Assembly: GCA_012270005.1 (NCBI GenBank)
Contig: JAAXJD010000072.1
Coordinates: forward strand, 313 to 32,425
Source of the DNA: Flavobacterium sp.
GTDB lineage: Bacteria > Bacteroidota > Bacteroidia > Flavobacteriales > Flavobacteriaceae
Length of the DNA stretch: 32,113 bases
Reading direction: 5' to 3'
The notes under the pieces were generated by a model. That model was not told the origin of the DNA, did no database searches, and saw nothing but the letters and a program-made list of their open reading frames with translations. The stretch's first letter is position 1. Each line of letters starts with the position of its first letter. Shown one piece after another: positions 285 to 17,391 of this stretch. The position numbers were made by a program, and so were the translations under genes.

Positions 285-1334
285 TTAGTTTTTCATCTTA
301 GCCAGTCTTTCCGGCTTTACAAGCGTAATGGTACTGGCTTGTTTATCTATAATTCCTTCGTCTTTAAAGTCGGTTAATGTACGGCTTACCGTTTCCGGTG
401 ATGTGCCCGAAAGTGCCGCAAGATCGTCCCGGCTTATTTTAATGCTTTTACCGTCGGTACTGTGGTTTGTTACCAGCTTTACCAGGGTTTCGGCTATACG
501 TTTACGTACAGACGAGTACGCTATCTGCATAAGTCGATCTTCTTTTTCACGAATGTTTTGTGCAAGCAGGGTTATAAACCGTGCACCTACATCCGGGTAC
601 AGGTACAGTAGCTTATCCAGTTGGTCTGTGGGTAAAAAGCTTAGTTCCGTTTCCTCCAGTGCCACGGCTGTATCGGTATACTTATCTTCAGAGAGGATAA
701 TATTAACATCCAGGTAGTCATCAGTTTTATAAATTCCGGTTATAAGCTCCCTGCCATCCTCGGTCATTTTAACCGTTTTTACCTTTCCGCTGATTATAAA
801 GTAAATACCGGTAACGCGGTCGCCCTCGTAGTGTATGTGCTGGTTTTTCTTATAAGTCTTAGAGCTGCGTTCCAGCATTAATTTTTTTAATTCGGCCAGC
901 CCGTCTTTTTTCGTAATAACCTCGTTAAGCTGTTGCGCTGATTTACCATAAAATAGCTGTTGTACCTGTTTACGTTTTAAGCGGCTTTCTATGGCGCGTA
1001 GTAGTTCGGTATCGTCAAAAGGTTTAGTAAGGTAATCGTCGGCTCCCAGTTCCATTCCGCGCCTTACATCAGTGCGCTCAGCCTTTGCGGTAAGGAATAT
1101 AAAAGGAGTTGCCTGCATATCAGGGTGGGTGTTTAGCGCCTGTAACACATCGTACCCATCCATTTCGGGCATCATAATATCGCACAGCACTATGTCGGGT
1201 TTGTGTTTTAGGGCAGCTTCCACGCCTTTTTTGCCATTTTCGGCAGCGGCTACATCATAGCCGGACAGTTCCAGGATTTCTACAACGTTCTCCCGGATGT
1301 CATCGTTATCTTCAATGATAAGTACTTTTGTCAT
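285..1334 (-). CDS. Response regulator: receiver domain fused to CRP/FNR domain
   Basis: The protein has 349 residues. Residues 1-120 are a receiver domain with acidic pocket E8/D9, phospho-acceptor D52 (LCDIMMPEMDG) and K104 (LTKPF). Residues about 150-262 are a cyclic-nucleotide-binding-type fold (YEGDRVTGIYFIISGKV). Residues about 272-345 are a CRP-type winged helix. The recognition helix reads SPETVSR, with E314, S317 and R318, which is the ExxSR pattern of FNR (which reads TTGAT) rather than the RExxGR of CRP. The N-terminal region of FNR with its iron-sulfur cysteines is absent, so control presumably comes through phosphorylation. It overlaps the upstream kinase gene by 4 bases (ATGA), so the two are translationally coupled and almost certainly partners. 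Targets are unknown; an FNR-type box nearby at 3644-3655 is a candidate. Confidence 0.9.
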   Translation of the reverse strand: MTKVLIIEDNDDIRENVVEILELSGYDVAAAENGKKGVEAALKHKPDIVLCDIMMPEMDGYDVLQALNTHPDMQATPFIFLTAKAERTDVRRGMELGADDYLTKPFDDTELLRAIESRLKRKQVQQLFYGKSAQQLNEVITKKDGLAELKKLMLERSSKTYKKNQHIHYEGDRVTGIYFIISGKVKTVKMTEDGRELITGIYKTDDYLDVNIILSEDKYTDTAVALEETELSFLPTDQLDKLLYLYPDVGARFITLLAQNIREKEDRLMQIAYSSVRKRIAETLVKLVTNHSTDGKSIKISRDDLAALSGTSPETVSRTLTDFKDEGIIDKQASTITLVKPERLAKMKN

Positions 1335-2518
1335 AATAATGGAACTGTGATGGTAAAGATGGTTCCTTCATTTTCTGCGCTATGGCAGGTTACAGTACCC
1401 TGCATAAGGGATACATAGCGCGCTACAATATTTAATCCCAGGCCGGTGCCCGGTATGTTTCCTGTATTTTGCGCTCTAAAAAATGCTTCAAACAGGTGTT
1501 TTTGTTCACTTTCTGGTATGCCTATGCCGTTATCTTGTATGGCTATGGTTATGGCATCTGCCGATATTTGTGTACTAAAGTTAATTAGCGTTTCCTCACC
1601 AGAATACTTTATAGCATTACTTAGCAAGTTAATAAAGCAGTTTTTAAGCAGGTTTTTATCTAGCCGTACCATGGTTTCGTTCCCCGTATGGCAATACGAT
1701 ATCTTTTGTTTTTTCTTAGCCAGCAGCTGCATTTCTTCCACGGTTTCCTTCCCAAAAATAGTAAGGTCAAACGTAGCGTAGCTAACCTCTATTTTACCGG
1801 CTTCGGCCTTTTCCACATGCAGAAAGTCGTCTAGTATAGTGGTAAGGTTACTCACCGCATTTTTTATTTTTTGCAGGTGGCGTTCTATTTTATTGTCTTC
1901 AAGTTTTTCGGTGTAACGCTCCAGTAGGGAATTAGATAACTGTATGGAAGCAAGCGGGGTTCTAAACTCATGCGAAGCCATAGATAACAGCCTACTCTTT
2001 AGTTGCCCGAGTTCCTTTTCTTTTTCCAGCGACTGGCTTACTTCTTCTTTGGCAAGGGTAAGTTCGTCTATGGTTTCGTTTAATGACAGGGTACGGTCTT
2101 TAACCAGTTCTTCAAGGTGTTGCGTATACTGCATAAGCCGGGTTTCGGCCTCCTTTTGCTGGCTTAAATCGTGTATAAACCCAGCAAAAATACGCATTTC
2201 ACCAAATGTTACCTCGCTAACACCCAACCTAAAAGGGAAAATACTACCGTTTTTTTTACGGCCCAGTACGTCGCGTCCGTAGCCTATAATATGGCCTACT
2301 CCTGTACGCAGGTAGTTGCTTATATATCCGTCATGGTTTTCCCTGTCGGGAGAGGGCATAAGTACAGCAATGTTTTTACCAATAACCTCCTCAGGCTCGT
2401 ACTGAAACAACCTGCAAGCCGAAGGGTTAATAGATTCTATTAATCCGCGGTCGCTTATAATTACAATGCCGTCGATGGCATTTTGAATAATAGCCTTTAA
2501 TAGCGCTTCGTTTTTCAT
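1331..2518 (-). CDS. FixL-like PAS sensor histidine kinase, putative heme oxygen sensor
   Basis: The protein has 395 residues with no membrane segment, so it is a soluble kinase. Residues 1-125 are a PAS domain, 125-172 a coiled coil, then HisKA with H183 (SHEFRTPL), and HATPase with N-box NLLSNAIKYS, DNGIGIP and GTGLGLNIV. The PAS region tracks the heme PAS of Bradyrhizobium FixL closely: H62 in NHDGYIS falls at the heme-ligating histidine (FixL H200), and H76, I77 and R82 in HIIGYGR fall at H214, I215 and the oxygen-contacting R220. FixL R206 is replaced here by N68. Heme binding is inferred from these residues, not shown. The kinase is the first gene of a two-gene operon with the receiver-CRP/FNR protein. 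Confidence 0.88.
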   Translation of the reverse strand: MKNEALLKAIIQNAIDGIVIISDRGLIESINPSACRLFQYEPEEVIGKNIAVLMPSPDRENHDGYISNYLRTGVGHIIGYGRDVLGRKKNGSIFPFRLGVSEVTFGEMRIFAGFIHDLSQQKEAETRLMQYTQHLEELVKDRTLSLNETIDELTLAKEEVSQSLEKEKELGQLKSRLLSMASHEFRTPLASIQLSNSLLERYTEKLEDNKIERHLQKIKNAVSNLTTILDDFLHVEKAEAGKIEVSYATFDLTIFGKETVEEMQLLAKKKQKISYCHTGNETMVRLDKNLLKNCFINLLSNAIKYSGEETLINFSTQISADAITIAIQDNGIGIPESEQKHLFEAFFRAQNTGNIPGTGLGLNIVARYVSLMQGTVTCHSAENEGTIFTITVPLL

Positions 2519-2618: not shown

Positions 2619-3551
2619 TTATTGCTTATAAATATTTATAAGATGATAGGTGTTTGTAAGTCCGTCTTTTGCCCACTCAATCCCTGTCGTGCTCTCAACC
2701 TTAGGTAGCCAATCTAAAAGTTTTTCGGCCTCTGCTTCCGGAACAGAAAATTCGTCCCTTATTTCAGCCGGGGTTATTTTTAATTGTGTAGAATTGGTAC
2801 CTGCAGCAAATTCTACATAGGTGCTCATGTGTCCTTTTTTACCTTTAACTTTTTGTAATAGTTGTTGGTCGTTATAAATAAGCACATCCGGCTGGGCTTC
2901 ATCTGTCCAAAGGATTTCTCCGAGTCCCCATGTACCTTTTATAACGCTGTTTTTTCCATCGTACTTTAATGTACCCGAAATACCGATGTCTGACCGTACC
3001 ATTTTTTGAACCATTACCGCCATTGATACATCGGAGAATTTTATGTTTTGGGTTACATAGTATTTTATGGCCCTGTCTGTAAATAACGATGCAAAGCAAC
3101 ATTTTACCGCGTAGGTAAGTGCCAGCACACCACGTATGTTAAGGTAAGAATCGGCAAGGCCAGCGGGTAGGTTAGTGCCTGTAGGGCTGTTTCTAACCGC
3201 TACAGACTGGTCATTAGGGAAATAAGTGGCATAGGCTTTTGTAAGAGCAGCTTCTGCCTCACGCGGAAATTTACCATTACACACCAGCCTGCGGCACTGC
3301 GCGGCAACGTCTGGCAGGTTTTCGTAGGTAACCGTATCTATGGTTTGAAGCAGAGCATCCAGCTTGTCGGCCAGTTTATTATGATTTATAAAGCGGTTGT
3401 AGTTAGCCGCAGTAATTATAAAACCATCGGGTATGGGTATACCGGTAACGGGCTGTTGCTGTTTCAGCAAAACAAGGGTTAGTGCTTTTTCTCCGGTTTT
3501 AGCAATGTCTTCTGGGGTAACATGGCCAAAATATTTTATTAACTCCTCCAT
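2619..3551 (-). CDS. Stand-alone degenerate PEP synthase/PPDK N-terminal (ATP-grasp) domain protein
   Basis: The 310 residues match only the nucleotide-binding N-terminal part of phosphoenolpyruvate synthase; the phosphohistidine and PEP/pyruvate-binding domains are absent, against about 790 residues for PpsA. Recognisable blocks are GEKALTLVLLK, IPIPDGFIITAANYNRF, VAVRNSPTGTNLPAGLADSY, CCFASLFTDRAIKYY, AVMVQKMVRSDIGISG and GTWGLGEI. Several positions normally strict are changed: RSSATAEDLP becomes RNSPTGTNLP, and the segment after SG is shortened. It therefore cannot perform the full PEP synthase reaction; it may retain nucleotide binding or act through a partner. The coding frame is intact with its own promoter, so it looks like a settled short gene rather than a fresh truncation. 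An FNR/CRP-type box sits in its promoter. Confidence 0.75.
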   Translation of the reverse strand: MEELIKYFGHVTPEDIAKTGEKALTLVLLKQQQPVTGIPIPDGFIITAANYNRFINHNKLADKLDALLQTIDTVTYENLPDVAAQCRRLVCNGKFPREAEAALTKAYATYFPNDQSVAVRNSPTGTNLPAGLADSYLNIRGVLALTYAVKCCFASLFTDRAIKYYVTQNIKFSDVSMAVMVQKMVRSDIGISGTLKYDGKNSVIKGTWGLGEILWTDEAQPDVLIYNDQQLLQKVKGKKGHMSTYVEFAAGTNSTQLKITPAEIRDEFSVPEAEAEKLLDWLPKVESTTGIEWAKDGLTNTYHLINIYKQ

Positions 3552-3612: not shown

Positions 3613-3620
3613 CAAATATA
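3613..3620 (-). promoter_or_regulatory. Bacteroidota -7 box of the PEP-synthase-like gene
   Basis: Read on the minus strand this is TATATTTG, a full match to TAnnTTTG. The predicted transcript would begin near 3609, leaving a leader of about 58 bases before the ATG. No convincing -33 TTG is seen, as expected of an activator-dependent promoter. Confidence 0.55.
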
Positions 3621-3643: not shown

Positions 3644-3655
3644 TGATATGTATCA
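3644..3655. promoter_or_regulatory. FNR/CRP-type operator
   Basis: TGAT-N4-ATCA, the core of an FNR box, and the right half extends to TCACAT, a CRP-type half-site. Its centre (3649.5) is about 41 bases upstream of the start predicted from the -7 box, the classic position for a class II activator of this family. The neighbouring receiver-CRP/FNR hybrid carries the matching ExxSR recognition helix. Binding by that protein is an inference. Confidence 0.55.
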
Positions 3656-4150: not shown

Positions 4151-4221
4151 TAGTTACTAACTTTAGAGAGTCTGCACACAGATGCGGAGCCGTTTAACTA
4201 TTATTGCTATTTAGTACAATT

Positions 4222-7200
4222 ATGCTAAACAAAATCATTGAGTTTTCCGTACGGAATAAACTCATTATAGGGTTATTTATACTGGCCCTTGTAGGGTATG
4301 GCGCATACGAAACCACACGCCTGCCCATAGATGCTGTACCCGATATTACCAATAATCAGGTACAGGTTATAACCGTAGCACCGTCTTTTGGCGCTACAGA
4401 TATAGAGCGATTAGTAACATTTCCTATAGAACAGGCTAACAGTAATATTGCCGGAATGAAAGAGATACGCAGTTTTTCGCGTTTCGGGCTTTCGCTGGTA
4501 ACCATTGTTTTTGAAGATAATGTAGATGTATACTGGGCACGCCAGCAGGTAGCCGAAAGATTGCAGCAGGTGCAAAGCCAAATTCCGCAGGGCATAGGCA
4601 CACCCGAACTAGGACCTATTTCTACAGGCCTTGGCGAAATTTACCAGTATGTTGTACGCGCCAAAAAAGGATACGAAAAACGGTACGATATTACCCGCCT
4701 ACGCACCATACAGGACTGGATTGTACGCCGCCAGCTGCTGGACGTTAAGGGGGTTGCCGAAGTAAGTAGTTTTGGCGGTAAGCTAAAACAATATGAGGTT
4801 GCCATAAACCCTGATAAGCTTAATGCATATGGCATCACCATAAACGATGTATTTAAAGCACTTGAAGACAACAACCAAAACACCGGTGGAGCCTATATAG
4901 AAAAAGGCCCTACCGTGTTGTACATACGCTCAGAAGGATTAGTTGGCACCATAGAAGACATAGGCAATGTAGCCCTGGAAAATAAACAAGGTATGCCGGT
5001 ATTCCTGCGCGATATTGCCGAGATTAAAACGGGTTATGCTACCCGCTATGGGGCACTTACCTATAATGATGAAGGTGAGGTAGCCGGTGCTATTGTTATG
5101 ATGCTTAAAGGGGCAAACAGCAGCGAGGTGATAAAGAATGTAAAAGAGCGCATAACCCAAATAGAAAAAACATTACCCGAGGGCGTTGAGATAGAACCAT
5201 TTCTGGACCGTACTAAAATGGTAAACAATGCCATAGGCACTGTAGAACATAACCTTATGGAAGGGGCGCTTATAGTAGTGTTTGTACTGGTAGTGTTTTT
5301 AGGTAACTTCAGGGCGGGGCTGTTAGTGGCGTCTGTAATACCGCTGGCCATGCTTTTTGCAATTTGCATGATGAACCTCTTTGGTGTAAGCGGTAACCTT
5401 ATGAGCCTGGGCGCACTGGATTTCGGGCTTATTGTAGATGGTGCCGTGATTATTGTAGAAGCGGTAATGCACAAATTGCACCACAGTAAAAAACTGGCTA
5501 AGGCTGGTAAGTTAAGCCAAAATAAAATGGACAGTGTGGTTACGTCTTCTGCAGAAAAAATGATGAATAGTGCTGTTTTCGGTCAGATTATTATCCTGAT
5601 TGTATACCTGCCGATTTTTACCCTTGAAGGTATTGAAGGGAAAATGTTTAAGCCTATGGCGCAAACGGTGGCTTTTGCCTTACTTGGTGCCTTTATACTG
5701 TCGCTTACGTATATACCTATGATGAGCGCGTTGTTCCTGAGCAGGAAAACAGCCCATAGCGAAAACATATCCGACAAGGTCATGGCAAAAATTGAGGCAG
5801 CATATCAGGGTGCACTTTTAAAATTATTACACCATCAAAAGAAAATACTGGCTACTGTGGCCCTGCTGTTTGTGGCAGCCGTAGGTGTAATGCTATCGTT
5901 AGGTGGGGAGTTTATCCCATCGCTAGAGGAGGGTGACTTTGCCGTGGAAAGCCGTGTGCTTACCGGCAGTAACCTGCAAACCACTATAGAAACTACCAGT
6001 AAAGCAGCAGGTATACTAAAGCAACGATTTCCTGAGGTTATTAAGGTGGTAACAAAGATAGGCAGTGGAGAAGTACCTACAGATCCTATGCCTATGGAAG
6101 CCGCGGATATGATGATTATCCTAAAAGATAAAAGCGAATGGACTACCGCAAAAACCACTGCGGAGCTTACCGGGAAAATGAGCAAAGCGCTGGAAGATGT
6201 GCCGGGGCTTACAGCAGGATTTCAGTTCCCGGTGCAGATGCGTTTTAACGAGCTTATGACCGGCGCGCGTCAGGATGTGGTTTTAAAAGTATTTGGAGAA
6301 AACCTGGACAGCCTGGCTAATACCGCGGCCAAGCTGGGTAAAATTATAAATACCGTAGATGGGGCTACAGCATTGTATATAGAACCGGTAACCGGTATGC
6401 AGCAAGTGGTTATTAATTATAACCGTGCGCTTATGGCGCAGTATCATTTGTCTGTAGCCGATGTAAACCGCGTGGTAAATACAGCCTTTGCTGGGCAGAG
6501 TGCAGGATTGGTATTTGAGGAAGAAAAACGTTTTGACATTGTGGTGCGCCTGGATGCCGATAAGCGTAAAAACCTGGACGACATTCGTAATGTACTGGTG
6601 CCTACACAAAATGGTGTGCAAGTACCGCTATCATTACTGGCCGATGTAAAGTTGGTACATGGACCAAACCAAATTCAGCGTGAGGATGCCAAACGCCGTA
6701 TTGTAGTTGGCTTTAATGTTAGTGGCCGCGATGTACAGAGTATTGTGGAAGAACTTCAGGCTAAGGTAGATAAGCAGTTAAAACTGCCCACAGGTTACTA
6801 TGTAACCTACGGTGGTGCTTTTGAAAACCTTAACCAGGCAAAAGCGCGACTTTCTATAGCTGTACCTATATCGCTTGCGCTAATATTTGTGTTGCTTTTC
6901 TTTGCGTTTCGTTCTGTAAAGCAGGGGCTTATTATTTACACGGCTATACCGCTTTCGGCTATAGGAGGTGTATTTTTCCTTGCGTTACGCGGTATGCCGT
7001 TTAGCATCAGCGCCGGGGTAGGTTTCATTGCGTTATTTGGGGTAGCAGTACTAAATGGTATTGTATTGATTTCAGAATTTAACCGGCTTAAGCAATCGGG
7101 TTTAACTAATATTGTACAAATTATTAAAACAGGTACACGGTCGCGTTTACGCCCTGTACTAATGACGGCTTTTGTGGCCTCGTTAGGTTTTTTACCTATG

Positions 7201-8559
7201 GCCATTAGTAACGGAGCTGGTGCCGAGGTACAGCGCCCGCTGGCTACTGTAGTTATTGGCGGCCTTATGGTGGCTACATTCCTTACACTTTTTGTTTTAC
7301 CTATGTTATATATTCTTTCAGAAAAAGGTTTCCGTGTGCGCAAAGGCACGGGCATGACAACATTGATTGCACTGATTTTACTAACTGGTTTTAGTGCTTC
7401 GGCTCAGGAAAAAATCACCCTTAACGACGCCCTTAACCGCGCAGTTGCCAATAATAACCAGGTTAAAAGCGAACGCCTTAAGGCACAATATAGGGAAGCC
7501 CTTACGGCAACCGGTACTGATATTCAAAAGACAGCGCTAACAGGCGAGTACGGACAAATAAACAGCATCTACAACGATACTAAATTCGGCGTGAGCCAAA
7601 CCATATCATTTCCTACGGTATACAACAGGCAAAAAAAACTGCTTGGGGAAGAGTATAAGGCAGCACTGCTTTCGGCTTCGTTAAAGGTGTTTGAAATAAA
7701 AAAAGCTGTCACCCAGGTGTTTTACACCTATACTTACCTGTACGAAAAAGAACAGTTGCTGCTACGCGCCGATTCGTTATATTCCGGCTTCGCCCAAAAG
7801 GCAAAACTTCGCCTGAAAAGCGGTGAAACGAATGTACTGGAGGAAGCTACTGCCGAAAACCAGCGCGCTATGGTAGCCATGCAATTACTGCAATTACGCA
7901 GGCAACTGCAAACTACAGCGCTTGAGTTTCAGCTGTTACTAAATTCTGATGCGCCTGTAATACCCTTGTTATCCGATAAAAAAACGGTGGCATCTTTTTT
8001 AGGTAAAAGCGTAGATAATAGCCCTTACTTAAAGTATCTTGGTTATCAAAAAAACATTGCTGCAGCACAAACAGAGGTAGAGCGCGCTAAACTATTACCC
8101 GATATTACCTTTGGTTATGCTAATATGAGTATTAAAGGTACCGGTGCAAATGATGTTTTTTATGGTTACGGTACGCGGTTTAGCGCAGTGCAATTTGGTT
8201 TACAGGTACCTATATTCCTGGGGCATCAGCGCGCACGTATAAAAGCGGCAAAGCTGTCGGAAAGCATTGCCCAGGCAGATTATGTTACTGAGCAGCAAAA
8301 GCTCCAATCAAAACAGGCGCAGCTTATGGCCGCGTATAACAGCGGTACTGACGCTACAAGATATTACGAAGAAAAAGGGCTTAAAAATGCGGGCGTTATG
8401 CGCCGTGCAGCAGTGAGGCAATTTGAATCAGGCGAAATAAATTTCCTTGATTTTGTACTGCTGGCTAATCAGAGCATAACCATAGAAAATGATTATGTAG
8501 AGGCTCTTAAGTCGTTAAACGACATTATAATTGAGTTAAACTTTATAGCGGAAAACTAA
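4222..8559 (+). CDS. czcA: CzcA-type heavy-metal RND efflux pump fused to a TolC/CzcC-like outer-membrane channel
   Basis: This is a 1445-residue fusion. Residues 1 to about 1040 are a heavy-metal-efflux RND pump with the usual twelve membrane helices and two large periplasmic loops. Helix 4 reads DFGLIVDGAVIIVE, giving D400, D406 and E413, the proton-relay triad of CzcA. MRFNELMTGARQDV resembles Zn/Co/Cd/Ni pumps (CzcA, CnrA) more than CusA. From M1045 a signal-peptide-like segment (TTLIALILLTGFSASA, then QEK) leads into a TolC-family coiled-coil channel of about 400 residues. The ATG at 4222 is preferred over an in-frame TTG 18 bases upstream because it gives the normal pump N-terminus MLNKIIEFSVRNKL. 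The lipoprotein adaptor gene follows after one base. Exact metal specificity is not readable. Confidence 0.93.
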   Translation: MLNKIIEFSVRNKLIIGLFILALVGYGAYETTRLPIDAVPDITNNQVQVITVAPSFGATDIERLVTFPIEQANSNIAGMKEIRSFSRFGLSLVTIVFEDNVDVYWARQQVAERLQQVQSQIPQGIGTPELGPISTGLGEIYQYVVRAKKGYEKRYDITRLRTIQDWIVRRQLLDVKGVAEVSSFGGKLKQYEVAINPDKLNAYGITINDVFKALEDNNQNTGGAYIEKGPTVLYIRSEGLVGTIEDIGNVALENKQGMPVFLRDIAEIKTGYATRYGALTYNDEGEVAGAIVMMLKGANSSEVIKNVKERITQIEKTLPEGVEIEPFLDRTKMVNNAIGTVEHNLMEGALIVVFVLVVFLGNFRAGLLVASVIPLAMLFAICMMNLFGVSGNLMSLGALDFGLIVDGAVIIVEAVMHKLHHSKKLAKAGKLSQNKMDSVVTSSAEKMMNSAVFGQIIILIVYLPIFTLEGIEGKMFKPMAQTVAFALLGAFILSLTYIPMMSALFLSRKTAHSENISDKVMAKIEAAYQGALLKLLHHQKKILATVALLFVAAVGVMLSLGGEFIPSLEEGDFAVESRVLTGSNLQTTIETTSKAAGILKQRFPEVIKVVTKIGSGEVPTDPMPMEAADMMIILKDKSEWTTAKTTAELTGKMSKALEDVPGLTAGFQFPVQMRFNELMTGARQDVVLKVFGENLDSLANTAAKLGKIINTVDGATALYIEPVTGMQQVVINYNRALMAQYHLSVADVNRVVNTAFAGQSAGLVFEEEKRFDIVVRLDADKRKNLDDIRNVLVPTQNGVQVPLSLLADVKLVHGPNQIQREDAKRRIVVGFNVSGRDVQSIVEELQAKVDKQLKLPTGYYVTYGGAFENLNQAKARLSIAVPISLALIFVLLFFAFRSVKQGLIIYTAIPLSAIGGVFFLALRGMPFSISAGVGFIALFGVAVLNGIVLISEFNRLKQSGLTNIVQIIKTGTRSRLRPVLMTAFVASLGFLPMAISNGAGAEVQRPLATVVIGGLMVATFLTLFVLPMLYILSEKGFRVRKGTGMTTLIALILLTGFSASAQEKITLNDALNRAVANNNQVKSERLKAQYREALTATGTDIQKTALTGEYGQINSIYNDTKFGVSQTISFPTVYNRQKKLLGEEYKAALLSASLKVFEIKKAVTQVFYTYTYLYEKEQLLLRADSLYSGFAQKAKLRLKSGETNVLEEATAENQRAMVAMQLLQLRRQLQTTALEFQLLLNSDAPVIPLLSDKKTVASFLGKSVDNSPYLKYLGYQKNIAAAQTEVERAKLLPDITFGYANMSIKGTGANDVFYGYGTRFSAVQFGLQVPIFLGHQRARIKAAKLSESIAQADYVTEQQKLQSKQAQLMAAYNSGTDATRYYEEKGLKNAGVMRRAAVRQFESGEINFLDFVLLANQSITIENDYVEALKSLNDIIIELNFIAEN

Positions 8560-8560
8560 C

Positions 8561-9691
8561 ATGAAAAATATACTGTGGCTTGCCGCTGTTGCTATAATGG
8601 CAGCGTCGTGCAAACAAAAAGAAACTACCCCCGAAACAACAGCTTCGGCAAATGAAAATGAAGTGGTGCTTACCGATGCGCAATATAAAAATGCGGGTAT
8701 AGAAACGGTAAAATTTACGGAGAAAAATATAAGCACCATCCTTAAAGTGAACGGGAAAATAGATGTACCTCCGCAAAACATGGTATCGGTAAGCGCACCG
8801 ATGGGCGGCTACGTAAGAAAACTAAACCTTTTACCCGGAGAACCTGTACATAAAGGGCAGGTTATTGCTGTGCTTGAGGATCAGCAATACGTAAAGCTAC
8901 AGCAGGATTACCTGGTAACAAAAGCTAAACTTCAAGTAGCGGAGCAGGAATATTCGCGCCAGCGCACGCTTAACGAAAGCAAAGCGGCGAGCGATAAGAT
9001 TACCGAACAAGCCGGTGCGGAGGTCACTGGGCTTAGGGTAACGCTAAAGGCACTGGAAGAACAGCTTAAACTTATCAGTATTAATCCGGCAAGGCTAACG
9101 GCAGGGAGTATTTCCAGGTCGGTTAACCTGCTAAGCCCCATTAATGGTTTTGTTACTAGCGTTTTGGTTAATACAGGTAAATATGCTAATCCGTCTGATG
9201 TGCTGCTGGAGCTTATAGACCCATCGGACATTCACCTGAACCTGAATATTTTTGAAAAAGATGCTGCCCATATAAAAATGGGACAGAATGTTATTGCTTA
9301 TACTAACAGCAACCCGACTGAAAAACACATGGCAAATATTGTAGTTATCAGTAAGGATGTAAATGCCAGCGGTATCGTTGAGGTACATTGCCATTTTAAG
9401 AAATACGACCCTAAATTATTGCCAGGTACTTATATGAATGCCGAGATTGAAACCACATCGAGCCTTTCTTCGTCGCTACCGGAGGATAGTATTGTTACTT
9501 TTGAAGGAAAAGACTACGTTTTTGTAAAAACTGGTACCAGGCAGTTTACCATACAGCCTGTTACTGCCGGAAAAACAGAAAACGGCTTTACAGAAATTAA
9601 AGATGCTGCATCGCTCTCAGGCAAAGAGATAGTAGGGAAGGGGGCGTATACGCTGCTCATGAAAATGAAAAATACCGCAGAAGAAGAATAG
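8561..9691 (+). CDS. czcB: Periplasmic adaptor lipoprotein of the RND efflux pump (CzcB/CusB-like)
   Basis: The 376-residue membrane fusion protein bridges the pump and the outer-membrane channel. It begins MKNILWLAAVAIMAASC, a lipoprotein signal with the acylated cysteine at C17. The lipoyl/barrel-sandwich half-motif is SVSAPMGGYVRKLNLLPGEP with VHKGQVIAVLED; a helical hairpin covers about residues 105-170, the second lipoyl half is LLSPINGFVTSVLVNTGKY, and beta-barrel and membrane-proximal domains follow. The histidine-rich metal-binding extension of some CusB/CzcB proteins is absent. It starts one base after the pump stop codon, so the two are co-transcribed, and it is the last gene before a strong terminator. 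Confidence 0.92.
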   Translation: MKNILWLAAVAIMAASCKQKETTPETTASANENEVVLTDAQYKNAGIETVKFTEKNISTILKVNGKIDVPPQNMVSVSAPMGGYVRKLNLLPGEPVHKGQVIAVLEDQQYVKLQQDYLVTKAKLQVAEQEYSRQRTLNESKAASDKITEQAGAEVTGLRVTLKALEEQLKLISINPARLTAGSISRSVNLLSPINGFVTSVLVNTGKYANPSDVLLELIDPSDIHLNLNIFEKDAAHIKMGQNVIAYTNSNPTEKHMANIVVISKDVNASGIVEVHCHFKKYDPKLLPGTYMNAEIETTSSLSSSLPEDSIVTFEGKDYVFVKTGTRQFTIQPVTAGKTENGFTEIKDAASLSGKEIVGKGAYTLLMKMKNTAEEE

Positions 9692-9703
9692 TATTTTCTG
9701 TAT

Positions 9704-9746
9704 AAAACAAAAACGACCACCTGTAACGGGTGGTCGTTTTTGTTTT
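9704..9746. terminator. Strong bidirectional terminator
   Basis: A perfect 18-bp stem (9704-9721 with 9729-9746) around a 7-base loop, with A-rich and T-rich ends that allow it to work in both directions. It separates the efflux operon from the convergent PhnA-domain gene. Confidence 0.92.
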
Positions 9747-9757
9747 ATGCAGTTCCG

Positions 9758-10339
9758 TTACTGTTTTTTAACGTATTTGGTAAGGATAACAATGGTTTGC
9801 CCTTCTACTTTACCCTCTATTTGTTCGTGGTTATCGTGCACCAGCCTTATGTTTCTTACGGCTGTACCTATTTTAGCGTTTAACGACGAACCTTTAACAT
9901 CAAGGTCTTTTATAAGTGTTACCGTATCGCCTCCCTGTAGTATATTACCGTTGCTGTCCATGTGTAGTTGTACGTTTCCATCACCCAGGTGGTCGCCGCT
10001 TGCTTGTGCCCATTCCATGTTATCATCGTCCAGATATATCATGTCCAGCGCGTCTGAAGCCCAACTTTCGTTACGGAACCTGTTTAGCATACGATACGCT
10101 ACTACTTGTACTGCAGGAACTTCACTCCACATGGCAGTAGGTAATATGCTTTCCCAGAATTTACTGTCTGGCAGTTCTTTTTTTTCTATCTGGTTCAGGC
10201 ATTTTTCGCTGATAAGAATACTGCTGTCTGCACCTTTATTTTTTGCAAAAGGCACTTCGTAAATTCTAAGGTTATCGGCTGTGCCGCTCAGCTCGCATAA
10301 GTTTCCGCTTCTTTGCTTCAGTACTTCTTCAATTTTCAT
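9758..10339 (-). CDS. PhnA (YjdM)-domain protein with altered N-terminal metal motif
   Basis: The C-terminal 70 of 193 residues are a clear PhnA domain: [20 protein letters not shown], then [20 protein letters not shown] and [13 protein letters not shown]. Despite its name this family is not linked biochemically to phosphonate use; its function is unsettled. The N-terminal part ([23 protein letters not shown]) resembles the zinc-ribbon-like head that in relatives reads CELCG. Here the second cysteine is a serine (C15 kept, S18), so zinc binding by that loop is doubtful. The middle region is specific to the long version of the family. The gene is monocistronic, convergent with the efflux operon and divergent from folE. 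Confidence 0.8.
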
Positions 10340-10413
10340 GATGTAGATTTAAAAAGGCCGAAAAGATAAAAATTTACACCCTTTAGCCCTCTAAATCACC
10401 CGCGGTTATTGTA

Positions 10414-10435
10414 AAATGTGACGACGATCACATTT
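10414..10435. promoter_or_regulatory. Perfect CRP-type palindrome upstream of folE
   Basis: The arms AAATGTGA and TCACATTT are perfectly complementary around a 6-base spacer (CGACGA), matching TGTGA-N6-TCACA at every position. The centre (10424.5) is about 70 bases before the folE start predicted from the -7 box, a usual class I activator distance. It lies in the shared region between folE and the PhnA-domain gene, so it could serve either. Which regulator binds is not shown by the window. Confidence 0.65.
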
Positions 10436-10483
10436 TTCTTGTTTTGTTTAATGTTTTTACAAAAAAGTTAAACAAATTTGTTG

Positions 10484-10491
10484 TACCTTTG
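10484..10491 (+). promoter_or_regulatory. -7 box of folE
   Basis: TACCTTTG is an exact TAnnTTTG match, predicting a transcript start near 10495 and a leader of about 43 bases. The leader contains a short 6-bp dyad (10501-10506 with 10518-10523). No clear -33 element is seen. Confidence 0.6.
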
Positions 10492-10537
10492 TAAAGGAGA
10501 TGAGCTAATAACCATAAAGCTCAAAGAGTAATTAGGT

Positions 10538-11236
10538 ATGGAAAAGAATGGAGTTTTAAATTACGTGCACACAAAAAACGGAATCAATGGTTTTTCGCAC
10601 GAAGAAATAGGAGATGAGCATCTTAGTACAGGGCCTGAAACGCCAATGAAGCCCGATGCGTTTTTACTTTCTGATGAAGAAAAGAAAGATAAGATAGCAG
10701 CGCTTTTTGCTGAAATTATGGATGTAATGGGACTGGATCTTACAGACGATTCTTTAAGAGGCACACCACAGCGGGTAGCAAAAATGTACATAGATGAAAT
10801 ATTTTCAGGGCTTAACCCTGCAAATAAGCCTAAGATAGCGCTGTTTGATAACAAATACCGTTATAACCAAATGCTTGTAGAGAAAAACATAAGTTTTTAC
10901 TCTAACTGCGAGCACCACTTTGTACCAATTATGGGCAGGGCGCACGTAGCCTACATTTCATCTGGCAAGGTAATAGGTTTATCTAAGTTAAACAGGGTAG
11001 TGCAGTATTTTGCAAAAAGGCCCCAGGTACAGGAAAGGCTTACCAACCAGATAGGTATGGAGCTGCAACAAATACTGGGTACCGAAGACGTAGCTGTGAT
11101 TATAGATGCCAAGCACTTGTGCGTATCATCTCGCGGTATTAAAGATGAAACCTCTGCAACGGTTACTGTTTTTTACGGTGGTGCTTTTAACAGCCCTGAA
11201 AAAATTGCAGAACTACACAATTACATAAACAACTAA
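10538..11236 (+). CDS. folE: GTP cyclohydrolase I
   Basis: This enzyme converts GTP to 7,8-dihydroneopterin triphosphate, the first step of tetrahydrofolate and pterin synthesis, as a cytoplasmic homodecamer. The 232-residue protein has all the type I signatures: zinc ligands C124 and H127 in SNCEHHFVPIMG and C195 in KHLCVSSRGIKD, plus GLSKLNRVVQYFAKRPQVQE and the substrate-binding SATVTVFYGGAF. The first 45 residues are a variable extension typical of longer bacterial FolE. The ATG lies at the expected distance from the -7 box. It stands alone between a promoter with a CRP-type palindrome and its own terminator. Confidence 0.97.
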   Translation: MEKNGVLNYVHTKNGINGFSHEEIGDEHLSTGPETPMKPDAFLLSDEEKKDKIAALFAEIMDVMGLDLTDDSLRGTPQRVAKMYIDEIFSGLNPANKPKIALFDNKYRYNQMLVEKNISFYSNCEHHFVPIMGRAHVAYISSGKVIGLSKLNRVVQYFAKRPQVQERLTNQIGMELQQILGTEDVAVIIDAKHLCVSSRGIKDETSATVTVFYGGAFNSPEKIAELHNYINN

Positions 11237-11297
11237 GCGGAAAAGTACTATTAATTTTTCTCATATAGTTTTGGTTTTCTTAAAGTTACTTGTATGT

Positions 11298-11329
11298 AAA
11301 TCCTGCCGCTGTTAAGGCAGGATTTTTTT
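11298..11329 (+). terminator. folE terminator
   Basis: AAATCCTGCC pairs perfectly with GGCAGGATTT around an 8-base loop, followed by a T-run. Confidence 0.88.
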
Positions 11330-11330
11330 A

Positions 11331-11365
11331 TAAAAAGAAATTCCATCCTTTTGGGGATGGAATTT
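11331..11365 (-). terminator. Terminator of the minus-strand mannan operon
   Basis: AAATTCCATCC (11338-11348) pairs perfectly with GGATGGAATTT (11355-11365). On the minus strand the hairpin is followed by a T-rich tract, closing the reductase - GH27 - GH5 transcript. Confidence 0.82.
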
Positions 11366-11405
11366 ACAGGACTAACTAATTAAACTCATGGTGTTATTTA
11401 AAGCA

Positions 11406-12368
11406 CTAAAGTTTTTCGTTCAGTTTTTTTAAATATGCACGTGCCATACGGCCGCTTTCTTTAAGGTCTTTATCTTTCCACTTTCCTTCAGAGCCGGCAG
11501 AAGGGTACAGCACGCTACAGGTTTCGTCTTTATCTGAAACCGACCAGGTAATCCAGCTCAGTTTTCGGGCTTCCATCCAGCCTATCCAGTTTTGCCATTC
11601 TGCTTTATCCAGCGAGCCATCTCCGGTAGCTTCCATTCCGGCACTTTCAGATATAAACACCGGCAGCCCTGCTTTAAGTGCTGCATCGGTACGGTCTCTA
11701 AGATACTGCTTATGTGTGGCGGCGTAAAAGTGCACGGTGTACATAAGATTATTGTAGCCTTTTATAGGGTCTGCGGCAGGCAGGTTAATATCCTGGTCCC
11801 AGTGTGGGCAGCCTACCAGTATAATGTTATCAGGGTCGTTTTTACGTATCACCTTTATCACCTCTTCTGCGTAGGCTTTTACTTCCGGCCATGTTTCCTC
11901 ATCGGGTTCATTAAATACCTCATAAATAATGTTTGGGTATTTGGCGTACTTTTTACTCATCTCGTCAAAAAACGCCTTTGCTTCTTCCAGGTTTATGTTA
12001 TGGCTGTGCCAGTCTATTATAACATAAATATTGTTCTTTATGGCACCGTCTACCACATTTGTAACGCATTTTTTTACAAACTCGGGGTTGTCTTTATAGG
12101 TTTTGCCTTTATCGCCCACCTCAATACCGGCAGCAGCGCGCAGTACGTTTACGTTCCAGTCGTCTTTTAGCCATTTAACGGTTTTAGCGTTATAGAATCT
12201 TGGCCAAAAACTACTCCAACCAAAGCTCATTCCCCTTAATACTACAGGTTTGCCATGGCTGTCTGTAAGTTGTGTACCCTGTACGCTTAGTTTGCCGTGC
12301 TCTTTTACCTGCGCGGTAGCAGCCGAAGCCATGACCAGGGATAGTGCCAGGATTTTTATTTTTTTCAT
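11406..12368 (-). CDS. GH5 endo-beta-1,4-glucanase/mannanase (subfamily 2-like), secreted
   Basis: The 320-residue retaining glycoside hydrolase is a single catalytic domain. A signal peptide (MKKIKILALSLVMASAATAQ) is followed by GKPVVLRGMSFGW, IDWHSHNI, acid/base E154 in VFNEP, HFYAATH, and nucleophile E241 in FISESAG. The order GxPVxLRGMSxGW near the N-terminus and the size fit GH5 subfamily 2, mostly endoglucanases, unlike the other GH5 of this locus. In a mannan locus this suggests cutting at glucose residues of glucomannan. No lipobox and no C-terminal sorting domain are present, so a periplasmic place is likely. It starts four bases after the GH27 gene and ends its operon. Substrate is inferred; CMCase, lichenase or mannanase activity all remain possible. 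Confidence 0.85.
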   Translation of the reverse strand: MKKIKILALSLVMASAATAQVKEHGKLSVQGTQLTDSHGKPVVLRGMSFGWSSFWPRFYNAKTVKWLKDDWNVNVLRAAAGIEVGDKGKTYKDNPEFVKKCVTNVVDGAIKNNIYVIIDWHSHNINLEEAKAFFDEMSKKYAKYPNIIYEVFNEPDEETWPEVKAYAEEVIKVIRKNDPDNIILVGCPHWDQDINLPAADPIKGYNNLMYTVHFYAATHKQYLRDRTDAALKAGLPVFISESAGMEATGDGSLDKAEWQNWIGWMEARKLSWITWSVSDKDETCSVLYPSAGSEGKWKDKDLKESGRMARAYLKKLNEKL

Positions 12369-12372
12369 ATAC

Positions 12373-13614
12373 TTATTTCTTTTTAGTTAAACGCAGCACC
12401 ACTACATCGTGTGCAGGCACCATTGTTTTAAATACTTTTTTGGTAGTGGCTGTGCCTTTGTCTTTTTTATCCCAAAGATTTTTAAGGCTATACGTAGTAG
12501 TAGCGAAGTTAGTACTGAAGCCAAAATCTACATCTTTTATTTCATTTTTACTCCAGTCAAAATCTACTGTTTTATTTACAGTACCACGGTTTAAGAATGC
12601 TATAGCCCAGTCGCCACCCTGTAGTGGCTTTGCCCAAACTTCAAGCCCGTCTGTGGCTGATACCTTAAAGCCCTGTGTACCCTGCTTATCCTGGTTGAGG
12701 GCAATAACTTCTTTATTTGTAAGTACTTCAAGCGTTTCGGCATCCATAGTCCTTAGGTCATTACCGGCAATAAGTGGTGCCGCAAGCATGGCCCATAAGG
12801 TAAAGTGTGCCCTGTTTTCGCCGGGAGTAAGTTTACCATTACCTATTTCCAGCATATCCGGATCGTTCCAGTGGCCCGGGCCGGCGTACTTTCTTAAGTC
12901 TTTTTGCATGTCTACAATTTGCATAACGCCCCATGATTTCCAGGTGCCGTGGTCTTCTATACAATCGAAACAGTTGTATATGTCGCCTGTAGTCCTCCAA
13001 AGGTGGCCTACGTTTTGCCCCCATTCCCATGGTTTATCGGTACCCCATTCGCAAATACTCAGTACTATAGGTCGACCTGCTTTTTTAAGTGCTGCTGTTA
13101 TGGTTTTATAAGCACCTTCGGCTTTAAGGCCTTCGGTATTGCACCAGTCGTACTTAAGGTAATCTATACCCCACGCGGCGTATTGCTGTGCATCCTGAAA
13201 TTCGAATCCACGGCTGCCCGGCCTGCCGCCACAGGTTTGGCTACCCGCATCGCTGTAAATACCCAGTTTTAGCCCCTTGCTGTGCACATAATCTGCCAGT
13301 GCCTTCATACCCGAAGGGAAACGTTTAGCATCCGGGTGAATAAAACCCTGTGCATCTCTGTCGCCGTGCCAGCAGTCGTCTATATTTATGTAGGTGTAAC
13401 CGGCATCGCGCATTCCGGTAGCTACCATGGCGTCTGCCATTTGCATAATCATTTTTTCGTCTACGTTACAGGCAAATTTATTCCAGCTATTCCATCCCAT
13501 AGGCGGGGTAAGGGCAAGGTTTTGGTATTTTGTATAATCCTGCACGTAGTTGTTGCCCTGAGCAAATCCGGTAAGGCCGGTGGCAAGGCACAGTGCTGTA
13601 ATCAGTTTCTTCAT
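12373..13614 (-). CDS. GH27 alpha-galactosidase, periplasmic
   Basis: The enzyme removes alpha-1,6-galactose side chains from galactomannan or galactoglucomannan. The 413-residue protein has a signal peptide (MKKLITALCLATGLTGFAQG), the GH27 entry motif LTPPMGWNSWNKF, INIDDCWHG, nucleophile D156 in YLKYDWCNT, CEWGTDKPW, acid/base D211 in WRTTGDI, and PGHWNDPDML. A C-terminal beta-sandwich follows (LEVWAKPLQGGDWAIAFLNR). The length is typical for the family. The gene follows the reductase gene by 19 bases and precedes the GH5 gene by four, so all three are one transcription unit. Alpha-N-acetylgalactosaminidase is the other GH27 activity, but the mannan context makes galactosidase far more likely. 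Confidence 0.93.
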   Translation of the reverse strand: MKKLITALCLATGLTGFAQGNNYVQDYTKYQNLALTPPMGWNSWNKFACNVDEKMIMQMADAMVATGMRDAGYTYINIDDCWHGDRDAQGFIHPDAKRFPSGMKALADYVHSKGLKLGIYSDAGSQTCGGRPGSRGFEFQDAQQYAAWGIDYLKYDWCNTEGLKAEGAYKTITAALKKAGRPIVLSICEWGTDKPWEWGQNVGHLWRTTGDIYNCFDCIEDHGTWKSWGVMQIVDMQKDLRKYAGPGHWNDPDMLEIGNGKLTPGENRAHFTLWAMLAAPLIAGNDLRTMDAETLEVLTNKEVIALNQDKQGTQGFKVSATDGLEVWAKPLQGGDWAIAFLNRGTVNKTVDFDWSKNEIKDVDFGFSTNFATTTYSLKNLWDKKDKGTATTKKVFKTMVPAHDVVVLRLTKKK

Positions 13615-13633
13615 TAATTGGTGTATTTTCAGT

Positions 13634-14629
13634 TTATTGATTGAGTATATTATCTATAGCGTTCAGTTCCTCCTCGCTAAAGCTTATATTTTTAAGGCAC
13701 TGTATACTATCGGTTACCTGTTCCGGCTTACTGGCGCCTATAAGTACCGATGTTACCCTGCTATCTTTTAATATCCACGACAGCGCCATGTGAGCCAACT
13801 TTTGTCCACGTTGTTGTGCAATGGCATTAAGCTGTTTTATTTTCTCTATTTTTTCGGGTGTAATGTGACTTTGGTTTAAAAACTGCCCGCTTGTAGCTAC
13901 CCGGCTATCTGCAGGGATGCCATTAAGGTACTTATCGGTAAGTAAGCCCTGTGCCAGTGGCGAAAAAGGGATACAACCCACACCGTTAACACCCAGCACA
14001 TCGAGCAGTCCGTTTTCCGGGTCGCGTACAAACATGCTGTATTTCGGTTGATGAATTACGCATGGTGTACCCATTTCCTTTAATAACGTTATGGCCTTTT
14101 GTGCGTGTTCTGCATTGTAATTGCTTATACCTGCATATAATGCTTTTCCCTGCCTTACAATAAGGTCCAGGGTTGCCATGGTTTCTTCCAATGGCGTTTC
14201 AGGGTCTGGGCGATGATGGTAAAAAATATCTACATAATCAAGCTTCATCCGCTTAAGGCTCTGATCCAGGCTGGAAACCAAATATTTTTTACTGCCCCAG
14301 TTGCCATAAGGCCCCTCCCACATGGTATAGCCGGCTTTGGTAGAAATGATAAGCTCATCCCTGTAAGATGTAAAATCCTGATGAAGTATTTTACCAAAAT
14401 TTTCTTCTGCCGAGCCCGGCGGGGGACCATAGTTATTGGCAAGGTCAAAATGAGTTATACCACTATCAAAAGCAGTGTGCAGTATGTTGCGGCTGTTTTC
14501 AAAATCGTTAACGTGGCCAAAGTTGTGCCATAAGCCAAGGGATAATGCGGATAGTTTAAGTCCGCTTTTTCCGCAGCGGCGGTATTGCATATCAGTGTAT
14601 CTGATTGCAGCGGGAGTATATTGTAGCAT
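13634..14629 (-). CDS. Aldo/keto reductase, YghZ (L-glyceraldehyde 3-phosphate reductase)-like
   Basis: This is a cytoplasmic NADPH-dependent oxidoreductase of 331 residues with a (beta/alpha)8 barrel. The catalytic tetrad is visible: D62 and Y67 in FDLANNYGPPPGSAEENFGK, K98 in STKAGY, and H139 in FYHHRPDPETPLEETM. The sequence MQYRRCGKSGLKLSALSLGL with WHNFG matches the YghZ group (AKR14) closely, including a short N-terminal extension, which supports the start at 14629 over the internal ATG at residue 14. YghZ reduces L-glyceraldehyde 3-phosphate and methylglyoxal, but AKR substrates are broad. It leads the operon with alpha-galactosidase and GH5, so it may reduce or oxidise a sugar from mannan breakdown; that is inference from position only. 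Confidence 0.88.
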   Translation of the reverse strand: MLQYTPAAIRYTDMQYRRCGKSGLKLSALSLGLWHNFGHVNDFENSRNILHTAFDSGITHFDLANNYGPPPGSAEENFGKILHQDFTSYRDELIISTKAGYTMWEGPYGNWGSKKYLVSSLDQSLKRMKLDYVDIFYHHRPDPETPLEETMATLDLIVRQGKALYAGISNYNAEHAQKAITLLKEMGTPCVIHQPKYSMFVRDPENGLLDVLGVNGVGCIPFSPLAQGLLTDKYLNGIPADSRVATSGQFLNQSHITPEKIEKIKQLNAIAQQRGQKLAHMALSWILKDSRVTSVLIGASKPEQVTDSIQCLKNISFSEEELNAIDNILNQ

Positions 14630-14680
14630 AAATTAGAGGTGTTTGATTAACACGTACAATGTACAAATGTTTACTACATA

Positions 14681-14712
14681 AAAACATTCCCCGTAAATAA
14701 TTACGGGGAATG
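14681..14712 (-). terminator. Terminator of the susC-susD-SGBP operon
   Basis: CATTCCCCGTAA (14685-14696) and TTACGGGGAATG (14701-14712) form a perfect 12-bp stem with a 4-base loop. On the minus strand it ends in TTTT. It separates the binding/transport operon from the reductase operon. Confidence 0.85.
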
Positions 14713-14755
14713 CTTGGTGTTTATATGCTTTTTAATCGTTTCAAACCAAAAACAA

Positions 14756-15766
14756 TTAATCTACAGTGTAACCTATGTTATCAAAGTAATAGTTGTGTGC
14801 ACTGCCTGTAAACTCCTGGAAAGAAATGTTTTGCAGGGCAGCAGGCCTTCCGCCAAGCTGTTCCCAGGTAAATTTATAGTCTTTCCATTCTTTACCAGTG
14901 GTTACAGCCCTGGTAGCATCGCCCCATCCTGTACCGTTAAAAATAAGTACCAGTTTACCGGCATCGTCTGAACGGATAGCGAAATGGATACCGGTGTACT
15001 GAGATACGCTTTCGTCCCATCCCCAGTTACCCTGAATGTTATCCCATCCGGCGATATTCTTTTTAATGAAGGTAGTACCCTGGTAAGCATCGGTAAGGCT
15101 TGTAAGGTATGAGTGGTTGTTCCAAGCCTCAATAGTCCATGGTGAGTAAAACACATCGTCATAAATTGCCGTTCCTACCGCAGTATTCCATGTAGAAGCA
15201 CCAGATGGCGTAGTAACCGTAATGTACTTGTGGTTAGAACCTACCGGCATTACTGCTTTAATTTCGGTAAGGGTGCTTGATACGATTTCTGCCTGTACAC
15301 CGCCCACTGTTACAACCGGATCCAGGAAGTAGCTACCATAAATGGTAAACTGCTCTCCATCGGCTACGTTAACCGGGTTAAAACTCTTTACCGTTGGCGC
15401 CGGTGGAAGTATCCTAAAACTATAGGTTGCTGTACCGCCGTCGGTAACTACTTTAAGCTCGCTTGGAGCGTTTTCGTACGGCGTATTTTTATCTATCGTT
15501 ACAAATATTACGTTATCTGTAACAAGGGTGCTGTTAAAGTACGTATCTACGTTATTAAAGTAGATTTTCTTAGTACTGTTAAAGCCTTTACCCCTAATAA
15601 TGTACATGTTGTTTGCTAAACCATCTTTTTTTTTTGATTTTTTTGTGGCAAGTCTTAGTTTTTCTATGTCTTGAGCTCCGGCAGCGTCATCGTTGTTACA
15701 CGATACCGTTAGGCCAAGGGCAACCACAAACAGCAAACCGAAGAATTTAATAAAATTAGCTTTCAT
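14756..15766 (-). CDS. Surface glycan-binding lipoprotein with IPT/TIG repeats (SusE position)
   Basis: This is a 336-residue lipoprotein (MKANFIKFFGLLFVVALGLTVSC, acylated C23). Two immunoglobulin-like IPT/TIG modules follow: about residues 50-115 (YIIRGKGFNSTKKIYFNNVD) and 120-200 (PAPTVKSFNPVNVADGEQFT, IYGSYFLDPVVTVGG). The C-terminal 130 residues form a carbohydrate-binding beta domain (YDDVFYSPWTIEAWNN to AHNYYFDNIGYTVD) rich in Trp and Tyr, similar to the C-terminal domain of surface glycan-binding proteins next to SusD in xyloglucan and mannan loci. It should hold mannan at the cell surface and hand it to the SusCD complex. A lysine-rich linker (KKSKKKDG) follows the lipid anchor. It is the third gene of the susCD operon, 19 bases after susD. 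Confidence 0.85.
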   Translation of the reverse strand: MKANFIKFFGLLFVVALGLTVSCNNDDAAGAQDIEKLRLATKKSKKKDGLANNMYIIRGKGFNSTKKIYFNNVDTYFNSTLVTDNVIFVTIDKNTPYENAPSELKVVTDGGTATYSFRILPPAPTVKSFNPVNVADGEQFTIYGSYFLDPVVTVGGVQAEIVSSTLTEIKAVMPVGSNHKYITVTTPSGASTWNTAVGTAIYDDVFYSPWTIEAWNNHSYLTSLTDAYQGTTFIKKNIAGWDNIQGNWGWDESVSQYTGIHFAIRSDDAGKLVLIFNGTGWGDATRAVTTGKEWKDYKFTWEQLGGRPAALQNISFQEFTGSAHNYYFDNIGYTVD

Positions 15767-15785
15767 GTGTGATGCAATTTTTTAA

Positions 15786-17387: not shown

Positions 17388-17391
17388 TTTA

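Follow-up and report, generated by a model that had tools for sequence, protein, structure and literature searches.

The window analysed here is a 32,113-nucleotide stretch of DNA from Flavobacterium sp. (assembly GCA_012270005.1, 3.57 Mb, completeness 93%; contig JAAXJD010000072.1, positions 313 to 32,425). It carries two overlapping minus-strand genes for a sensor histidine kinase (HK) and a response regulator (RR), which we consider probable components of a low-oxygen two-component system: a soluble FixL-like heme-PAS kinase would phosphorylate an FNR-type RR that is encoded in the same operon and has no iron-sulfur cysteines. The evidence comes from the domain anatomy of the two proteins, their conserved pairing, conserved DNA sites, promoter geometry and genomic context. 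By comparative genomics, the direct action of a FixL-like kinase on an FNR-type regulator is well supported.

A FixL-like PAS kinase

HK (395 aa; 1331..2518, minus strand) has a PAS-HisKA-HATPase_c architecture by open reading frame (ORF) and Pfam analysis. These are the only domains found, and the protein is probably cytosolic. Its best named match comes from Flavobacterium sp. Root420 (69%). The PAS domain (PF00989; HK residues 6-117; 2168..2503, minus strand) was compared with all PDB chains, among which FixL gave the best matches (9.8e-30 to 6.4e-27), followed by the DosP heme-PAS (2.9e-11 to 3.5e-9) and a next chain at 5e-5. FixL leads the first DosP chain by 18 orders of magnitude and the first chain that is neither FixL nor DosP by 24. 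Because these scores set FixL so far ahead, the likeness of the PAS domain to FixL is more than chance.

In an ungapped alignment to Bradyrhizobium FixL, H62 falls on the heme-ligand histidine, H76, I77 and R82 fall on H, I and R, and N68 falls on R; we take the last four FixL positions to be H214, I215, R220 and R206, respectively. Conservation was counted over 97 aligned sequences (66 from a scan of genome contigs, 30 from Flavobacterium loci, and the window) after four paralogs had been dropped; one sequence does not contain the region, which gives denominators of 96. H62, the candidate proximal heme ligand (2333..2335, minus strand), is kept in 91/96 orthologs, R82 in 93/96 and H76 in 72/96, and the position of N68 is R in 66/96. 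By sequence, HK has both the heme-ligand histidine and the distal arginine of a FixL-type PAS domain. The candidate phospho-acceptor histidine of HisKA, H183 (1970..1972, minus strand), lies within SMASHEFRTPL and is H in 97/97 sequences. Against the curated model NF041777 (sens_FixL_Rhizob), HK scores 153 bits, below the cut-off of 850.

The kinase might partner RR and yet have a PAS domain that senses NO, CO, redox state or another ligand, or that is a dimer module only. We regard this explanation as rather unlikely. It gains from the points that sequence likeness is not proof of heme, that H76 is variable, and that H62 and the FG-loop motif have been lost together in one Flavobacterium lineage (L146-L148). 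It is countered by the distance at which FixL leads all other solved PAS domains, by the retention of H62 and R82 across the family, and by the presence of the operator sites described below at ccoNO and HemN genes. The distribution of H62 also speaks against it: all five Flavobacterium genomes whose kinase has lost H62 have a standalone FNR with iron-sulfur cysteines (cysteine-FNR), and the four Flavobacterium genomes that have the pair and no cysteine-FNR all keep H62 and R82. This pattern fits residues that would serve one cofactor, without being proof of heme.

Three of the five H62-less Flavobacterium loci, L146-L148, show a joint decay of H62, H76 and the HIIG motif. The kinase, the regulator and a tandem pair of sites 22 bp apart 3' of RR are still there, and the downstream ORF is 957-1581 aa long. 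The group looks like a re-purposed branch that may no longer sense heme ligands.

A receiver fused to a CRP/FNR module

The RR gene (349 aa; 285..1334, minus strand) overlaps the HK stop by 4 nt. Its product begins with a receiver domain (PF00072, Response_reg, 8.5e-33; RR residues 4-116; 987..1325, minus strand), in which E8, D9, D52, T82 and K104 are invariant in 18 aligned RR sequences and supply the acidic pocket, phospho-acceptor aspartate, T/S and K expected of a two-component receiver. D52, the candidate phospho-acceptor (1179..1181, minus strand), and K104 are both present in 66/66 relatives. The rest of the protein is a CRP/FNR module (RR residues 159-346; 297..860, minus strand) made up of a cNMP-binding-like barrel (PF00027, residues 159-243), a dimer helix and HTH_Crp_2 (PF13545, residues 278-346). 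CRP and FNR structures are among the best Foldseek matches of the RR model. The recognition helix contains ETVSR (RR residues 314-318; 381..395, minus strand), with E314 and R318 in 66/66 relatives and S317 in 65/66, so that RR has the barrel and Crp-type HTH as well as the ExxSR helix of the CRP/FNR superfamily.

The only cysteine of RR is C51, in the receiver, and the iron-sulfur cysteines of FNR are absent. This makes an FNR-type iron-sulfur switch very unlikely and points to the receiver as the probable input. The GE...RS/T sequence, the cAMP-binding motif of the CRP barrel, was not seen by eye in the barrel across the 18-sequence alignment. RR scores below the curated cut-offs of both the FNR model NF008365 (72.4 bits, cut-off 228) and the FixK model NF050806 (75.8 bits, cut-off 300). 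FixJ is a REC-LuxR/GerE protein, and the output of RR is instead cNMP_binding plus HTH_Crp_2.

These results agree with most of what a first-pass annotation had read from the DNA: the two ORFs and their overlap, the FixL letters at H62, H76, I77 and R82, and the fusion of a receiver bearing D52 to a CRP/FNR module with an ExxSR helix and no iron-sulfur cysteines. Its observation that N68 replaces an arginine of FixL is correct for the window protein and does not describe the family, in which arginine prevails.

Conservation of the pair

The first-pass annotation had also proposed looking for the same two-gene pair in related genomes, where it proved to recur. One scan of genome contigs returned 76 loci, 68 of them with an HK more than 43% identical, and RR lies directly downstream in 66/68. 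These 66 pair loci come mostly from Mucilaginibacter, with others from Pedobacter, Pelobium and Sphingobacterium, one from Flavobacterium and one from a member of the Lewinellaceae. A genus sample gave an HK match at E <= 1e-90 in 30/299 genomes, the source genome included, and the pair is present in all 30 further Flavobacterium loci fetched (29 genomes). In a family-wide sample of 299 genomes, the source genome was the sole HK match at E <= 1e-100. Six plasmid records, from Hymenobacter, Runella and Spirosoma, contain RR by tblastn, and the kinase adjoins it in all three plasmids inspected (two Hymenobacter, one Runella).

Operator sites and promoter geometry

The enrichment of TGAY-N4-RTCA and the promoter geometry around the pair are the new findings of this work. 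The inverted repeat TGA-N6-TCA occurs upstream of HK in 53/66 loci (5.4 in shuffles) and upstream of a neighbouring D-2-hydroxyacid dehydrogenase in 61/62 (5.7 in shuffles). It is not enriched upstream of hemN in pair loci (5/52; 4.7 in shuffles), so hemN is probably read there from an upstream promoter. Listing the sites gave TGAY-N4-RTCA with A/T flanks. In all five sets compared, this motif comes first among the 64 palindromes that share its form. With L001 left out, it is found upstream of HK in 52/65 loci and within 150 nt after RR in 60/65. In the pair loci, two such sites stand exactly 22 bp apart 24 times, versus at most once for any other of the 64 palindromes. On pHsw1, a Hymenobacter swuensis plasmid typed as mobilizable (L276), the site pairs are 23 bp apart, not 22.

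The sites are also fixed relative to TAnnTTTG, the consensus of the Bacteroidota -7 element. A gap of 23 or 45 nt between the two is found in the window and, over four sets, in 17/30 Flavobacterium HK-RR loci, 60/65 other HK-RR loci, 29/29 Flavobacterium ccoN loci and 4/22 other ccoN loci. Taken in the same order, any other single gap occurs in a mean of 0.11, 0.19, 0.10 and 0.01 loci (maximum 2, 2, 5 and 1). The best single gap gives 20 (gap 23), 70 (gap 45), 33 (gap 23) and 3 (gap 45) matches for TGAY-N4-RTCA; for the 63 others the maxima at any one gap are 4, 6, 12 and 3. The sets in this comparison were slightly larger. If transcription starts 4-5 nt after TAnnTTTG, the site centres would lie near -41.5 and -63.5.

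In the window, the operator candidate TGATACATATCA (3644..3655, minus strand) is separated by 23 nt from TATATTTG (3613..3620, minus strand), which matches TAnnTTTG, and by 92 nt from the start codon, at 3551, of a gene for a standalone PPDK_N, the ATP-binding domain of phosphoenolpyruvate (PEP) synthase (310 aa; 2619..3551, minus strand; PF01326, 1.3e-48). This gene lies 100 nt upstream of HK in the same orientation, and is likely the first gene of the block that contains HK and RR.

Longer motifs were rejected. The full anaerobox TTGAY-N4-RTCAA has 5 matches in the source genome versus 10 in the reversed control, and occurs upstream of HK, the dehydrogenase and hemN in 0/66, 0/62 and 1/52 loci; the CRP box TGTGA-N6-TCACA occurs in 0, 1 and 0 of the same loci. 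What remains as the motif is TGAY-N4-RTCA, in place of the full TTGAT-N4-ATCAA. A scan of the source genome with 2 mismatches gave 27 sites versus 53 in the reversed control, and a stricter pattern 3 versus 1. Genome-wide counts are uninformative, and only promoter-locked sites were used.

Some further sites stand apart from this geometry. A second TGAY-N4-RTCA site in the window (10419..10430, plus strand), between yjdM on the minus strand and folE (GTP cyclohydrolase I) on the plus strand, has symmetric flanks and is not at a 23/45 gap, which makes it a weaker case. The sites at L082 (U32 peptidase) and L104 (TrxR-like protein, ferredoxin-size ORF) are intergenic and off the 23/45 gap, and were not retained.

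Gene neighbourhood of the pair

Of the 66 pair loci, 62 contain the D-2-hydroxyacid dehydrogenase cluster and 52 the HemN cluster (both family names were taken from one representative each). The Sphingobacterium locus L053 has an additional P-ATPase with a PF12156 domain, presumably a CcoI-type pump. On H. swuensis pHsw1 (5413-14920), the pair and two truncated hemoglobins are followed by a metal P-ATPase, ccoS and ccoN, and in H. psoromatis two genes named as cytochrome D oxidase subunits lie ~2 kb from the pair. Within Flavobacterium, a PEP-synthase-type gene is directly 5' of HK in 10/30 other loci and Hsp20 directly 3' of the pair in 5/30; a Usp protein is encoded downstream of the pair in L225.

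This context, together with the pairing itself, bears on whether the two genes are just a coincidental combination of an ordinary PAS kinase and a CRP-type regulator that has nothing in particular to do with oxygen. Both kinds of protein are common in Bacteroidota, and respiratory genes are missing around the Runella plasmid copy. Such a coincidence is nonetheless highly improbable given that HK and RR occur together in 66/68 and 30/30 loci, that cco/hemN, bd-oxidase and truncated-hemoglobin genes recur around them, and that the sites keep their 23/45 gap to TAnnTTTG.

Predicted targets and the standalone cysteine-FNR

The source genome also encodes a standalone cysteine-FNR (C4, C7, C29 and five more cysteines), divergent from ccoI, and has gap-23 sites before hemN, ccoNO and the gene for this FNR. 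We examined ccoNO in 30 Flavobacterium genomes, comprising 15 of the 29 other pair-bearing and 15 of the 269 pair-less genomes. ccoNO is present in 29/30, and a site lies <=500 nt upstream in 29/29 (15 with the pair, 14 without). The site is equally kept in pair-less genomes, and FNR alone therefore suffices to keep it.

A cysteine-FNR ortholog is missing from 4/30 pair-bearing Flavobacterium genomes. In three of these (G488, G370, G506) the pair shares one cluster with hemN, ccoH, ccoNO and ccoI, with a gap-23 site before ccoNO in 3/3 and before hemN in 2/3. In the fourth (G486) the start of HemN lies ~7 kb away from the pair, and the two fetched stretches contained no recognisable cco gene. 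Outside the genus, 23/25 pair-bearing genomes have any match to the cysteine-FNR and none exceeds 35% identity. Of the 19 loci returned for these matches, 15 are RR itself and L234, L243 and L245 are other CRP-family proteins. ccoNO is present in 22/25 of these genomes. The site precedes ccoNO in 21/21 loci whose start was found, 20 of them outside Flavobacterium, and the next palindrome in 7/21; the Sphingobacterium ccoN loci L258 and L260 were left out, as no start was found.

On another reading of these data, the protein that owns the sites is the standalone cysteine-FNR or a different member of the CRP family; the pair would then be merely one of its targets, and RR would read something else. 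The ccoNO sites of 14/14 pair-less Flavobacterium genomes with ccoNO favour such an owner, as does the source genome, with its FNR beside ccoI and its gap-23 sites. Yet pair-bearing genomes with no FNR ortholog still have the sites at ccoNO, in the vicinity of ccoI and before hemN. Outside Flavobacterium the sites precede ccoNO in 20/20 loci, although 15/19 of the best FNR-match loci are RR and the remaining 4 encode different members of the CRP family. Pair loci show the 22-bp tandem arrangement, and RR itself has the FNR-type ExxSR helix. We consider ownership by another protein unlikely.

In the source genome, because the cysteine-FNR has the same kind of sites, the pair is probably a parallel, additional input beside it and not a clean replacement of a cascade. 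In some relatives, the pair appears to act without a cysteine-FNR.

Proposed mechanism and points against it

As we infer the mechanism of the low-oxygen two-component system, O2 bound to the PAS heme would hold the kinase off; as O2 falls, H183 would be autophosphorylated and the phosphate passed to D52. Phosphorylated RR would dimerise and bind TGAY-N4-RTCA, in many cases together with a second dimer 22 bp away. The sites stand a fixed distance 5' of TAnnTTTG, with predicted centres near -41.5/-63.5, positions typical of FNR-class activators. RR would turn on its own operon and microaerobic genes, namely those for the cbb3 oxidase and the oxygen-independent HemN; further targets among the neighbours may be the D-2-hydroxyacid dehydrogenase, Hsp20, Usp and PEP synthase genes.

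Several observations weigh against this account. The cysteine-FNR has the same site and 23-nt geometry in Flavobacterium, source genome included, so the sites alone cannot name the binding protein. Absence of FNR does not go significantly with presence of the pair (4/30 vs 13/223 among genomes at least 90% complete; Fisher p = 0.13). Pair-bearing genomes outside Flavobacterium have CRP-family proteins ~30% identical to FNR, one of them (L249) with a cysteine cluster, and hence not all are without an FNR-like protein. With no ccoNO match in 3/26 pair-bearing genomes, cbb3 cannot be the target everywhere, and no respiratory gene was found among the annotated neighbours of the Runella plasmid pair; these two points slightly lower our confidence. 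In 5/30 Flavobacterium orthologs H62 has given way to Y (four) or S (one), and the sensing of heme ligands may therefore not be common to all these kinases. The Foldseek/VIA-align matches of the HK model (mean pLDDT, the model's confidence score, 75.1) come chiefly from kinase domains and are of little use for judging the PAS domain. In many loci the first of the sites that follow RR extends into the stop codon of the gene, and part of its conservation is therefore coding. Finally, 13/30 Flavobacterium HK-RR loci have no site at gap 23/45, and outside Flavobacterium the 4/22 ccoN loci with this gap do not include Hymenobacter L276.

The first-pass annotation had suggested that a phosphorelay acts directly on an FNR-type DNA reader and that this condenses a cascade by one step. 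The first part is strengthened by a pair kept as a unit, by FNR-like half-sites at fixed distances before the pair, ccoNO and hemN, and by the pair-bearing genomes without a cysteine-FNR (4/30 in Flavobacterium) or with no match above 35% identity (25 genomes outside it). The second part probably does not hold for the source genome, which keeps a cysteine-FNR with like sites. Whether the pair is, more broadly, a widespread Bacteroidota oxygen circuit that uses the operator and geometry of FNR plus tandem binding at ~-41.5/-63.5, and that took over the cbb3/hemN regulon in FNR-less lineages by putting a phosphorelay in place of an iron-sulfur oxygen sensor on unchanged DNA sites, seems to us evenly balanced.

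If the proposed relay is correct, it would be an oxygen relay in its shortest form, from sensor kinase straight to FNR-type activator, outside Proteobacteria. It would account for cbb3 control in many Sphingobacteriaceae and a few Flavobacterium that have no obvious cysteine-FNR. Nature would also have run an experiment in replacing a regulator, with the same operators served by an iron-sulfur sensor, a phosphorelay, or both.

Other features of the window

A PPDK_N-only protein (310-351 aa) is encoded directly 5' of HK in the window and in L136, L137, L138, L140 and L142, and a full PEP synthase (802-810 aa) in that position in L001, L139, L141 and L143-L145. The window gives no space for the missing PEP-synthase domains, so the short PPDK_N form looks like a genuine gene. 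On the plus strand at 4204-9691 is a 1451-aa ORF that by sequence resembles a CusA/CzcA-type RND pump with an in-frame outer-membrane-factor-like tail, followed by an RND-type periplasmic adaptor. The region 11406-28888 encodes a member of a GH5 cellulase family, an alpha-galactosidase, an aldo/keto reductase, SusD, a SusC-like receptor, an AraC-type regulator, two GH26 proteins and a sodium:solute symporter, and is a probable mannan or galactomannan utilisation locus.

Comparison with known systems

The component parts are of known kinds, and their arrangement is without description in the open literature searched. For a FixL/receiver-FNR pair in Bacteroidota, the titles and abstract starts searched contained no description, and nothing on this architecture was found in an excerpt of PMC9239204. 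In another excerpted source, CRP/FNR homologs of Flavobacteriales and Saprospiraceae metagenome-assembled genomes are predicted to be carbon-sensing (PMC8510549).

RR shares its domain architecture with the REC-CRP response regulators, a class known from response-regulator surveys; the open literature searched yielded no experimental work on an oxygen regulator of this class. DosP (EcDOS), the second nearest solved PAS to that of HK, is a phosphodiesterase and not a kinase. FixL and DosP are both listed as heme-b PAS proteins in an excerpt of PMC8694187.

With FNR, FnrN and ANR, RR has in common the ExxSR helix and, through its proposed sites, the half-site TGAY as in TTGAT, the site positions and the promoters. 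It differs in having no iron-sulfur cysteines, in its predicted control via the receiver, and in proposed sites that do not require the outer TT of the anaerobox.

The hFixL-FxkR-FixK system of Rhizobium leguminosarum and R. etli is likewise a FixL-type relay, ending in FixK on fixNOQP, and has FnrN in parallel, as the cysteine-FNR may be in the source genome. FxkR binds the K-box before fixK in that relay (PMC7888657, in excerpt), and in the FixL relays covered by excerpts of PMC7888657 and PMC4999443 fixK is a step of its own. That system takes two steps; the window pair has no intermediate regulator.

FixL-FixJ-FixK2 of Bradyrhizobium and Sinorhizobium comes closest in outline: by sequence, both systems have a FixL-type PAS kinase and a two-component relay, and both would end in an FNR-type protein acting on the cbb3 oxidase and related genes. 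The pair would thus work like FixL-FixJ-FixK, yet it is not FixL, FixK or FNR by curated models, nor FixJ by output domain. Here there is no FixJ and no fixK transcription step; receiver and FNR-type protein form a single chain, and one protein replaces two.

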